Assembly: GCF_014639275.1 (NCBI RefSeq)
Contig: NZ_BMFW01000004.1
Span: forward strand, 62,001-126,000
Reading direction: 5' to 3'
Source: Arthrobacter liuii
GTDB lineage: Bacteria > Actinomycetota > Actinomycetes > Actinomycetales > Micrococcaceae
Length of the DNA stretch: 64,000 nt
Shown here: in pieces, positions 14,972 through 62,330 of the stretch
Numbering within the stretch: the first letter of the stretch is position 1
How the letters are laid out: each line of letters opens with the position of its first letter
Notes under the pieces: model-generated
Databases searched by the model: none
What the model saw: only the letters and a program-made list of their open reading frames with translations
What the model was told of the DNA's origin: nothing
Made by a program: the position numbers and the translations under genes

Positions 14972-15226
14972 TCAGCGATTCAGTGAGCGGCGGTCCAGGA
15001 ACGCCTGAAGCGGGATCTCGTTGCGCTGGTCGGGGAGGATCACCCACGCCAGGACGTAGAAGACGAAGGCCGGGCCCGGAAGCAGGGCGAAGAGCAGGAA
15101 GGCGATACGGACAAAGGCAACGTCCACGTTGAGCTTGGCTGCGATGCCGCCGCAGACTCCGCCGAGCCACCGCTCCGGGCCGCGCTTCAGGCCAAAGCCC
15201 CTGACAATGCTGAAGAACTTATCCAT
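14972..15226 (-). CDS. Small PspC-domain protein
   Basis: An 84-aa protein consisting of one PspC domain: 'LKRGPERWLGGVCGGIAAKLNVDVAFVRIAFLL' (about residues 13-45) followed by a hydrophobic segment ending 'FYVLAWVILPDQ', as in the family. PspC proteins sit in the cytoplasmic membrane and take part in envelope-stress signalling. This is the last of three leftward genes that start at 17030. The ATG at 15226 is preceded by GGGAAG. A terminator hairpin follows. The neighbouring 513-aa protein and the divergent kinase also carry PspC domains, so the three probably act in one pathway. Confidence 0.88.
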   Translation of the reverse strand: MDKFFSIVRGFGLKRGPERWLGGVCGGIAAKLNVDVAFVRIAFLLFALLPGPAFVFYVLAWVILPDQRNEIPLQAFLDRRSLNR

Positions 15227-15488: not shown

Positions 15489-17030
15489 TCAGCTGCCTTC
15501 CTGGATAGTGACGTTGCTGAAGGTGGCATTGATCCGGACCACCAGGTGGTTTCCGGGCTTGCCGGTGTTGTAGCTGCTTTCGCGGGTTGTGGTTCCCCCG
15601 CGCTGGCCGCTTGCCTCGTTCAGGTTTCCCATGGTCATGTCCGCCTTGATGTCCACGGGCACGTTTTGCGGTATCACCACGGTCACGTTGCTGGCGGTGA
15701 TGTCCAGGGGGACCACGACGTCGGATGTCAGGGGAGCGGTGGGGGAGAGGTTCGTGAGGTCCATGGTTCCCCGCCCGGCGGTGATATCAATGCCGCCGCG
15801 CGCCTCCTGGATGCTCGCCGGATTCCAGTCCACCTGCTGGAAACGCATGCGGCCGTCACCCACGGTGTTGTAGACGCCGCCGGTGATCAGTGCGATCACG
15901 GCAAAGAGGCTCAGGATTCCGGAGGTCCGGCCGCGGAAGCCCGCCACCAGGATGCCCAGGCCAAGGACTGCCGCGGCACTGGCCCACACGATCGCGTTGG
16001 CCGAGCCGCCCAGGTCGATGATGTTCGCGGCATCGAGCGCCTTGAGCCCACCGCCCACCAGCAGGGCAGAACCGGTTGCGATGGCGACGGCGGGGGCGCC
16101 GGGACCCGATGGCCGGCGCTTGGGCGGCTGTGGTGGGACCCACGGTGCGGGGTAGCCGCCAGCCGCGGGTCCCCCGCTGCCCGGGTCGACGGGAGGCGTA
16201 CCACTGGGAGGAGTACCGCCGGTGCCAGTGCTGCTGCCGTACGACGGCGCTGCGGGGACCCGCGCGGCCGGCCCGGGGGCCGTGCCTGCGGAGAACGATG
16301 AGGCGTGTTCCGTGCCGGAGCGTTCCATCGGGTAGGTGGCGGGGTAGGCCGCGCCGGAGGGTGGGGCGTGGCCGGCCATCGTGGGGTGGGCCTTGTTGCG
16401 CTGTGAGAGGAAGTAGATCAGGTAGATCGCGCCACCCACCCAGAAGACGGTCCAGAGCAGGCCGCTCAGGCCGTTATGGGTCCAGCCCCAGAAGCCCCCG
16501 CCAAGGCCGGTGAGTCCCAGGACCGTGGCGATCAGGGAACCAGTCATGCCGCTGGACCACCGGCCTGCACCGGCTTCCTGGACGTGGATCCTGCCGTCCG
16601 GTTCCGGGAGGAAGGCCCACGCCAGGCCGTAGAGCAGTACCCCGATGCCTGCCAGGAGGGTCAGGACAATCAGGATGCCGCGGATGATGATCGGGTCCAC
16701 ATTCAACCGGTGGGCGATGCCGCTGCAGACGCCGCCGATCCACCTGTCGTTGGTCCGGTAGATGCCTTGGCTGCGGATCCAGCCGAAGAAGTCTGTGGAA
16801 GGCGCCGGGGCAGGAGGGCTGCCCTGGAATGCGTATGCCTGGGCTGGGTCCGCAGGGCCGGCGGAGGGGCCGGTTTCCGGGCCAGTGGTGGGGCCCGCGG
16901 ATGGGGCCGCCGCGAAGTTCGGAGGCGCCGAGGCGGGGGACGGGAGGGGCTCGGTGGGCTGCCCGCTGCCCGGGCCGGGCAACGGTTCGTCAGGGTGTTC
17001 GTCGTCGGGGGAAGGGGTCTGCGAGTTCAT
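15489..17030 (-). CDS. Large PspC-domain membrane protein with LiaF-like C-terminal part
   Basis: A 513-aa protein. Residues 1-80 are Pro/Ala/Gly-rich and probably disordered and cytoplasmic. A PspC domain follows at about 90-145 ('YRTNDRWIGGVCSGIAHRLNVDP', ending 'LLYGLAWAFLPEP'). Further membrane segments lie at about 165-210, then a Pro/Gly/Ser linker, then three or more helices at about 310-385. The last ~115 residues look beta-rich ('GGIDITAGRGTMDLTNL', 'NVTVVIPQNVPVDIKADMTMG'), resembling the LiaF/DUF2154 domain that senses or restrains LiaRS-type signalling. It heads the leftward operon and is transcribed away from the PspC-kinase/regulator pair, consistent with a shared signalling system. 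Confidence 0.85.
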   Translation of the reverse strand: MNSQTPSPDDEHPDEPLPGPGSGQPTEPLPSPASAPPNFAAAPSAGPTTGPETGPSAGPADPAQAYAFQGSPPAPAPSTDFFGWIRSQGIYRTNDRWIGGVCSGIAHRLNVDPIIIRGILIVLTLLAGIGVLLYGLAWAFLPEPDGRIHVQEAGAGRWSSGMTGSLIATVLGLTGLGGGFWGWTHNGLSGLLWTVFWVGGAIYLIYFLSQRNKAHPTMAGHAPPSGAAYPATYPMERSGTEHASSFSAGTAPGPAARVPAAPSYGSSTGTGGTPPSGTPPVDPGSGGPAAGGYPAPWVPPQPPKRRPSGPGAPAVAIATGSALLVGGGLKALDAANIIDLGGSANAIVWASAAAVLGLGILVAGFRGRTSGILSLFAVIALITGGVYNTVGDGRMRFQQVDWNPASIQEARGGIDITAGRGTMDLTNLSPTAPLTSDVVVPLDITASNVTVVIPQNVPVDIKADMTMGNLNEASGQRGGTTTRESSYNTGKPGNHLVVRINATFSNVTIQEGS

Positions 17031-17155: not shown

Positions 17156-18533
17156 ATGACAACCCTTTCGGCGCGGCCGCCCCTGGCACGGAGCAGCGAC
17201 CGTGTCATCGCGGGGGTGTGCTCCGGCCTCGCCGTGCACCTGGGGTGGCCGGTGAAGAACGTCCGCGTGGGCATGGTCCTTGCGTCCTTCGCAGGAGGGG
17301 CAGGCCTGGTTTTCTATGCATGGCTCTGGATCATGGTGCCCACCGCGGACGAGGCCGCGCGCCGCAACGCCCGCAGGCCGGCGTCGCCCATTGCGCCCAC
17401 GGTGAGCCAGTCGACGGTGAGCCAGCCGATGCAGGGCCGCGCGACGCCGGGAACGGCGGACGACGGCGGGACCCGCGCAGGTGCCGCCGGTGCCGTTGGC
17501 TCTGTTCCCGGCGACGCCGGCGCGCTGGCCGGTCCACCCTGGTTCCGTGCGCGCGGGATGCGCTACGGGAAGGAAATCCTGCTCGGCTGCGGGCTCCTGC
17601 TGGTGGCTGGCATCATGATTGCCCAGTTGCTTGGCGTGGACGTGTCCCTCGGTACGCTGATTCCGGCCGCCGCAGTCCTGGGCGGCGCCTCCATCGCGTG
17701 GATGCAGCTGGACGAGACCCGCCGCGCGGGGCTGGTGGACAAGACCAAGGCCGACCAGGCCGGCGGATGGGGCCGCCTGGCAGCCGGCTTGGCGCTGGTG
17801 GTGGCCGGGGTCCTGGTGATGGTGTCCGGCTCAGGCTCGTGGGAGCAGACGTGGCTGGCGCTGCTGGCTTCCGTGGCGGTCCTGGGCGGCGTGGTCTTGG
17901 TCCTGCTGCCGTGGGCACTGAAATTCTGGCGGGACCTGGAAGCCGAGCGCGCCGGCAGGATCCGCGAGACGGAGCGGGCAGAGATCGCTGCCCACCTGCA
18001 TGATTCCGTGCTGCAGACCCTCGCGCTGATCCAGCGCCGGGCAGGCAATGAGCACGACGTCGTCCGCCTGGCCCGTGCCCAGGAACGCGAGCTGCGTGGC
18101 TGGCTCTTCCAGGATCCCGGGCCGCGAAAGCGGCCAGCTTTCAGACCGGATCAAGGCTGTTGCAGGCGAGGTGGAGGACCTGCTTGGCAATGCCGTGGAG
18201 GTGGTCACCGTTGGTGATGCCGCCATGACCGAGGCGCACGAAGCCCTGGTCCAGGCAAGCCGGGAGGCTATGCTCAACGCCTCACGGCACGGCGGCGGGA
18301 CGGTCTCGGTGTACCTCGAGGCGTCGGACGGGCAGGCCGAGATCTTCATCAAGGACAGGGGGCCGGGCTTTGAGCTGGGGGACGTACCGGCGGACCGGTT
18401 GGGAATCCGGGAATCGATAATCGGCAGGATGAAACGGCACGGCGGCTCGGCTGCCATCCTCAGCACGGGGGACGGCACCGAAGTCCGCCTCAGGCTGCCG
18501 GCTGCAGCAGAACACGCGGAAGGAAAATCATGA
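17156..18533 (+). pseudogene. PspC-domain sensor histidine kinase, frameshifted
   Basis: From ATG 17156 the frame encodes a PspC domain (residues 10-62), a linker, four hydrophobic segments (about 140-265) and the HisKA_3-type H-box 'AEIAAHLHDSVLQTLALIQRR' near residue 280. At 18113-18125 ('GATCCCGGGCCGC') the protein-like reading moves to the +1 frame, which continues 'ESGQLSDRIKAVAGEVEDLLG' and holds the HATPase part ('EAMLNASRHGGGTVSVYL', 'FIKDRGPGFELGD', 'GDGTEVRLRLP') to TGA 18533. The unshifted frame stops at 18217, removing the ATPase domain. Removing one base of CCCGGG would restore about 459 aa. It may be a recent mutation, a sequencing error in a GC run or, less likely, recoding. 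It overlaps the regulator start by four bases. Confidence 0.85.
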
Positions 18534-19219
18534 ACACGACCCTGGGGACAGGAGCCGGCACCGCCCGGCCGGCCAATTCCGTACGGGTGGTCATCGTTGA
18601 CGATCACGCTATCTTCCGGTCCGGGCTGAAAGCGGACCTCGATGCCAGCATCCACGTGGTGGGGGAGGCGGCCACCGTTGAACAGGCCATCGCCGTCATC
18701 GTCCAGCAGCGGCCCGATGTCGTCCTATTGGACGTGCACCTCCCCGGCGGACTCGGCGGAGGCGGCCGGGAAGTAATCGCCGGCTCCGCAGCGCTCCTGT
18801 CCACCACCCGTTTCCTGGCCCTGAGCGTTTCCGACGCCGCGGAGGACGTGGTGGCAGTCATCCGCGCCGGTGCCCGCGGCTACGTCACCAAGACCATCTC
18901 CGGCGCCGAGATCACCGACGCCGTTTTCCGGGTGGCCGGCGGCGATGCGGTCTTCTCCCCGCGCCTTGCCGGTTTCGTCCTGGACGCCTTCGGCACCGCC
19001 CCCGCAGACATCGCCGATGACGAACTGGACAAGCTCTCCGCCCGCGAACTCGAGGTCATGCGCCTTATCGCCCGCGGCTACAGCTACAAGGAAGTGGCAA
19101 AGGAGCTCTTCATCAGCATCAAAACCGTGGAGACCCACGTGTCCGCCGTGCTGCGGAAACTCCAGCTTTCCAGCCGCCACGAACTCACCAAGTGGGCCGC
19201 GGAGCGCCGCCTCCTCTAA
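18530..19219 (+). CDS. NarL/LiaR-type response regulator
   Basis: A 229-aa two-domain regulator. The receiver domain (about 17-140) holds the acidic pair D24-D25 ('VIVDDHAIFRSGL'), the phospho-acceptor D68 ('VVLLDVHLPGG') and the Lys of 'GYVTKTIS'. The C-terminal LuxR-type helix-turn-helix covers about 168-225 ('LSARELEVMRLIARGYSYKEVAKEL', 'SIKTVETHVSAVLRKL'). The ATG overlaps the kinase stop (ATGA), so the pair is translationally coupled. The kinase in front carries a frameshift, yet this gene looks intact with all key residues. It most likely controls the adjacent PspC genes, by analogy with LiaFSR. Confidence 0.92.
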   Translation: MNTTLGTGAGTARPANSVRVVIVDDHAIFRSGLKADLDASIHVVGEAATVEQAIAVIVQQRPDVVLLDVHLPGGLGGGGREVIAGSAALLSTTRFLALSVSDAAEDVVAVIRAGARGYVTKTISGAEITDAVFRVAGGDAVFSPRLAGFVLDAFGTAPADIADDELDKLSARELEVMRLIARGYSYKEVAKELFISIKTVETHVSAVLRKLQLSSRHELTKWAAERRLL

Positions 19220-20806: not shown

Positions 20807-20879
20807 AGGGTAGTGGCGCAATTGGTAGCGCAGCGGTCTCCAAAACCGCAGGTTGCAGGTTCGAGTCCTGTCTGCCCTG
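20807..20879 (+). tRNA. tRNA-Trp (anticodon CCA)
   Basis: A 73-nt cloverleaf. The acceptor stem is AGGGTAG (20807-20813) with CTGCCCT (20872-20878) and discriminator G20879. The D-loop contains 'TTGGTAGCG', the anticodon loop is CTCCAAA giving anticodon CCA, and the T-arm is 'GCAGGTTCGAGTCCTGT'. The CCA tail is not encoded. A tRNA-Trp directly before secE is a common actinobacterial arrangement. Confidence 0.96.
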
Positions 20880-20961
20880 CGCAAGCTGCTCCGGGTGAAA
20901 GCCCGGGGCAGGCGCAGCAACCATGGTTCTGATCAGGGCCGGGTAATCCACCATTGCAAAG

Positions 20962-61371: not shown

Positions 61372-62330
61372 GAATAATGCACCTTTTTTTCAACGAAGCG
61401 GAGCTGGACCACCGTGATGATGAGCAGGATGGCGAACAGGATCACCGAAACGGAAGCGGAGTAACCGGCCCGGTTGTAGGCACCGAAGGCCTGGAGGTAC
61501 GCCTCATAGATCAGGGTGCTGGTGCCGTTCCCCAGCGGTGTCATGATCCGGATGAGGTCGAACGCCTGGAGCGAGCTCAGCATGGTCGTGATCAGCAGGA
61601 AGAAGGTGGTGGGGGACAAGAGGGGAAGCGACATGCTGATGAAGCGGCGGACGTCGTTCGCCCCGTCCAGGGAAGCGGCCTCCATCACGTCCTTCGGCAG
61701 TGACTGCAGCCCGGCAAGGAACACCACGGCGCAGTACCCCAGGTTCTTCCATACATAGACCAGGATCACCATGGCCAGCGAGAGCTGCGGATCATTGATC
61801 CACTGGGGGCTCTGTTGTCCGATTCCCCGGAGCAGCCAGGCAAGGACGCCGTAGCCCGGGTCGAAGATGAACAGCCAAACGAGGCCCACCCCTACGCCTG
61901 AGAGTACGTAGGGGGCAAAGACCGCGGAGCGGGCAAAGGTGGTTCCCCGGACTTTGGTGTTGAGCGCAAGCGCCACCAGCAGGCCCAGGATCATGGACCC
62001 GCCCACCGTGGCGACGGTAAAGACGGCCGTGGTTCCCAATACCCGGCCGGCGTCAGGACCGGTGAAGAACGCCACGTAATTGTCCAGGCCGACGACGGTG
62101 GCCGAGGCTGCACCCAGTGTCCAGTCCAATGTGGAGTAGTAAATGTTGTTGATCAGCGGCAGGTAGGTGAACGTCGCTATGAGGGCCAGGTTGGGCAGGG
62201 CCAGGGCCAGGAACACCAGGCCGTCTCGGCGCGACCGGGAAGACCAGCGGCGTCGGCGAACGGGTGCGGGGGTTGGGGTCAAGGAATCAGCGGGCACGAC
62301 GGCCCTTGGCTTTGTCAGATCAGCGGTCAT
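61368..62330 (-). CDS. Sugar-type ABC transporter permease (MalF/UgpA class)
   Basis: A 320-aa permease that starts the operon. About 35 charged residues precede six membrane segments ('LVFLALALPNLALIATFTYLPLINNIYYS' is the first). The EAA loop is 'EAASLDGANDVRRFISMSLP'. 'LQAFDLIRIMTPLGNGTSTLIYEAYLQAF' is characteristic of the UgpA/MalF group. Overlaps the second permease by four bases. Regulator and ATPase are missing nearby, which points to a shared MsiK-type ATPase encoded elsewhere. Confidence 0.93.
   Translation of the reverse strand: MTADLTKPRAVVPADSLTPTPAPVRRRRWSSRSRRDGLVFLALALPNLALIATFTYLPLINNIYYSTLDWTLGAASATVVGLDNYVAFFTGPDAGRVLGTTAVFTVATVGGSMILGLLVALALNTKVRGTTFARSAVFAPYVLSGVGVGLVWLFIFDPGYGVLAWLLRGIGQQSPQWINDPQLSLAMVILVYVWKNLGYCAVVFLAGLQSLPKDVMEAASLDGANDVRRFISMSLPLLSPTTFFLLITTMLSSLQAFDLIRIMTPLGNGTSTLIYEAYLQAFGAYNRAGYSASVSVILFAILLIITVVQLRFVEKKVHYS

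Follow-up and report, generated by a model that had tools for sequence, protein, structure and literature searches.

A three-component system of Corynebacterium glutamicum, EsrISR, was reportedly described by Kleine et al. in 2017; in it, the kinase is accompanied by a response regulator and a PspC-like protein. PMC9239133, whose reference list names EsrISR, describes for C. glutamicum a three-component system of envelope stress in which a PspC domain serves as input to a histidine kinase. Here, we report the analysis of a PspC-type kinase locus of Arthrobacter liuii, located in a 64,000-nt stretch of DNA (the window, positions 62001–126000 of contig C4), in which the kinase gene is interrupted by a break in the reading frame. 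We find that the break, as assembled, most likely goes back to a mutation that arose recently in this strain or to a mistake in the sequence, rather than to a novel type of recoding.

Architecture of the kinase locus

The kinase is spread over two overlapping frames and lies between a response-regulator gene and a divergent gene, with the following features.

17156–18217, plus strand: 5′ part of a PspC-domain sensor histidine kinase (open reading frame, Pfam, identity to relatives L007–L009)
18113–18125, plus strand: frame break GATCCCGGGCCGC, one base longer than in relatives (letters, alignments, frame test)
18120–18135, plus strand: hairpin GGCCGC-GAAA-GCGGCC at the break (letters)
18123–18533, plus strand: 3′ part of the kinase (HATPase_c), in the +1 frame (open reading frame, Pfam, identity to L007–L009)
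18530–19219, plus strand: LuxR/NarL-type response regulator (PF00072 and PF00196)
15489–17030, minus strand: divergent PspC-domain protein (PF04024; weak LiaF-like C terminus, below the cut-off)

The first open reading frame (353 aa) starts at the ATG at 17156, is closed by a TGA at 18215–18217 and is out of frame past about 18121. It overlaps a second one (18048–18533, 161 aa) in a frame that differs by +1; 18048 is the mechanical start of that reading frame, the kinase part proper being given from 18123. Pfam places PF04024 (PspC) at residues 9–63 of the first frame (E 2.9e-18) and HATPase_c in the second (1.6e-07), and HisKA_3 over the H-box stretch scores 17.8 bits, below the cut-off of 24, as it also stays below the cut-off in an intact relative. 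Besides the PspC domain and the H-box, the 5′ part has a presumed membrane region, read from the letters. The start codon of the response regulator overlaps the kinase stop (ATGA). The genome contains three PspC matches, all in this cluster: the divergent gene, the kinase and an 85-aa open frame at 15029–15178 on the minus strand (C4:77029–77178), downstream of the end of the divergent PspC gene. A tRNA-Trp gene lies at 20807–20880 of the window.

The frame break

Homology passes to the +1 frame within 18113–18125, where the first frame reads WLFQDPG and the next PGRESGQLSDR; in the closest relatives, WLFQDPGRESGQLSDR runs uninterrupted in one frame. In pairwise alignments with the best 29 relatives (L007–L035), the window carries one surplus base at the site in 29 of 29 cases, with the gap of L032 placed a few bases downstream of the break site and a second gap elsewhere in the local alignment of L025. 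Identity to L007, L008 and L009 is 88.1–92.2% in the N-terminal half and 95.6–99.3% in the C-terminal half; because both halves are this similar to the relatives, a chance origin of the two-frame pattern is excluded. At the site, a G/C run adjoins a GC-only hairpin, and the 23-base sequence there occurs once in the genome. Open reading frames, Pfam domains and alignments thus bear out the original prediction of a frameshift in a PspC sensor kinase at a CCCGGG run, with the H-box in one frame and the whole ATPase domain in the +1 frame; the name given to the kinase likewise fits its Pfam and NCBIfam matches.

Comparison with relatives had been proposed as a check, and it shows the gene open across the site elsewhere. 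Among 115 loci examined in a frame test, 109 have one open frame running from the N-terminal match to the C-terminal one, two are entries of the window’s own locus, both broken, and four (L002–L005, short fragments) have no kinase match. The 109 comprise 29 from genus genomes and 80 named relatives, the best 80 of 140 encoded ones, and are to be counted as loci, not species, since the two sets overlap (L007/L041 and L008/L039 each seem to be one genome). Among named relatives, the nearest found belong to Arthrobacter and Pseudarthrobacter, the strain’s own record possibly having been left out of that set. At the DNA level the region was matched in 195 of 198 genus genomes. A protein search gave matches in 204 of 206, with no internal stops among the matches listed; only two of these genomes, the window’s own (G000) and G026, have two matches. 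The second match in G000 was taken for the C-terminal half of the kinase, and the match listed for G026 covers 1–444 in one open frame. The idea that the genome has another intact kinase copy was rejected: a DNA search of the own genome returned the locus itself and four fragments of 30–46 bases, and the PspC matches are confined to the cluster.

Age of the break

We scored bases private to the own genome against 16 relatives (L007–L022), treating each relative alike as a control. The N part (306 codons) has 11 synonymous and 2 nonsynonymous private substitutions and the C part (136 codons) 2 and 0, giving 13 synonymous and 2 nonsynonymous over both parts; these numbers are small. For the N part, the synonymous-to-nonsynonymous ratio is lower in 16 of 16 controls than in the own genome; for the C part, four of the 16 (L009, L010, L015 and L017) also have zero nonsynonymous changes, with more synonymous ones. 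The private bases of neither kinase part show a sign of relaxed selection against these 16 relatives; therefore, either the gene was under selection until very recently, or the organism itself does not have the break. With no trace of decay, the surplus base is either of very recent date or erroneous, and the synonymous excess rules out a long-standing pseudogene. The earlier view of the event as recent or erroneous is thereby supported, with the break seen only in the own genome and neither half decayed.

Reading of the site in relatives

The original prediction had also entertained a rare recoding site, which finds no comparative support. None of the 109 homologous loci needs a shift, which rules out recoding conserved in the genus, and three of them (L015, L017 and L018) share CCCGGGCCGCGAAAGCGG, 18 letters from the CCCGGG run, and read straight. 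L017 shares 24 bases, from the run through the hairpin, again with a straight frame; the hairpin letters also occur in intact relatives such as this one. Because relatives with the same letters read straight through, no conserved recoding signal is seen. Nor was a structure special to the site found, the 81-base stretch folding no better than shuffles (z 0.60).

Other one-base breaks in the assembly

The assembly is a 4.82-Mb draft of 99 contigs, listed as 100% complete with 0.31 contamination. A single relative, G001, whose genome is one contig, served for comparison over about 463 kb, of which 282 kb aligned on contig C4 and 180 kb within the first 200 kb of contig C2. The first scan gave four two-frame genes in the own genome, the kinase among them, and one in G001; judged from the letters, sites 6014 and 195184 were discarded as upstream non-coding stretches and the G001 gene as a gene-end effect. 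The second scan gave 18 clusters; 12 sites were inspected, most of them, by reading, at gene boundaries. The final scan listed eight non-triplet indels in open coding frame, the broken side being the own genome in five and G001 in three. Four of these (304883, 63226, 91973 and 129690) were rejected as lying within about 5 bases of an open-frame edge in one or both of the genomes; 52305 was rejected because no frame there passes the coding filter. The three kept are in-gene one-base breaks in the own genome, all on C4 (the kinase site, C4:50331 and C4:231801); none was accepted in G001, and none on the 180 kb of C2.

The two further sites lie outside the window. At C4:50331 the gene is whole in G001, and its halves are in two frames in the own genome. 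The gene at C4:231801, which we take to resemble a CorA-type magnesium transporter, is broken by one base relative to G001; in addition, about 46 codons, counted by eye, are missing in frame.

Origin of the surplus base

The explanation that we favour, with moderate confidence, is a true mutation: a very recent single-base length change, seen only in this genome, that broke a conserved PspC-type kinase gene. A real surplus base would leave the strain with a truncated membrane sensor that has the H-box and lacks the ATP-binding domain, and the kinase would presumably be inactive because the H-box half is without that domain; the response-regulator start, through its overlap with the kinase stop, may also lose translational coupling. 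A sequencing or assembly error, with an intact kinase in the living strain, is the less probable account but a substantial one. It is consistent with a break found only in the own genome in a kinase without decay, and with both halves as conserved as in intact genes, an error is no worse a fit than a mutation. The G/C run and adjacent hairpin form a place where errors are expected, although mutations are too. The draft state of the assembly points the same way, as do the two additional in-gene breaks on C4, compared with none accepted in G001; the count of three to zero, from one relative only, could mean a less accurate assembly. Against an error, three in-gene breaks in about 463 kb, with the C2 stretch free of them, do not support a grossly error-ridden assembly, though the excess over G001 remains, and the codons missing in frame at C4:231801 suggest true decay in that gene, unless it is misassembled.

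Two accounts in which kinase function outlasts the break seem very improbable. The ATPase domain could be made separately and act in trans with the H-box half, for which the ATPase frame offers two ATG codons, one at 18048 and one at 18225, the latter shortly after the stop of the first frame; yet none of the 109 homologous loci is split, and a product starting at 18225 would begin beside or inside the ATPase domain. The position of this second ATG (18225–18227), just past the TGA, makes re-initiation possible but is probably a coincidence. We likewise give very little credence to leaky or programmed +1 frameshifting at CCC-G, in which tRNA-Pro would slip from CCC (18116–18118) to CCG (18117–18119) and GGC would then be read, yielding D-P-G-R-E-S, residue for residue the peptide of the closest relatives. 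In PMC4519876, CCC-G is among the mRNAs shifted in vitro by the UGG isoacceptor of Escherichia coli tRNAPro, ranking second after CCC-A on CCC-N; a related structural paper concerns CCC-U (PMC7577736). Non-programmed +1 shifts, however, average less than 0.003% according to PMC4519876 and reach up to 1% where CCC-C stands at codon 2. The straight frames of the 109 loci, that of L017 despite the same 24 bases, and the unexceptional RNA fold also argue against such slipping. That the break is real and a little full-length kinase is still made by a tRNA-Pro slip is a highly doubtful combination. Since the slip product would equal the relatives’ peptide, the fresh frameshift would then dim the envelope-stress sensor and not knock it out, and leaky decoding, if true, would make this a natural frameshift mutation that is partly self-suppressed.

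Comparison with known systems

By its domains and gene content, the cluster of PspC kinase, LuxR regulator and divergent PspC gene appears to resemble EsrISR of C. glutamicum. An N-terminal PspC domain is present, as are an adjacent LuxR-type regulator and a separate PspC protein, and in the three-component system described in PMC9239133 the PspC domain is likewise the N-terminal input of the histidine kinase. In contrast to EsrISR, the kinase frame is broken in the window, where the H-box and HATPase_c do not lie in one polypeptide; they share one frame in the 109 homologous loci. The best NCBIfam match of the intact relative L007 is the MacS-family sensor kinase (NF047322; residues 189–435), although its 87.9 bits are far below the model cut-off of 300 bits.

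The significance of the break is small: the kinase should be annotated as frameshifted, and the reads checked before anything is concluded about how the strain senses envelope stress. Like an ordinary strain-specific frameshift pseudogene, the locus has a one-base break that was seen only here, in a gene that is intact in the relatives tested; it differs from one in that the break is too recent for decay and the base itself is putative.
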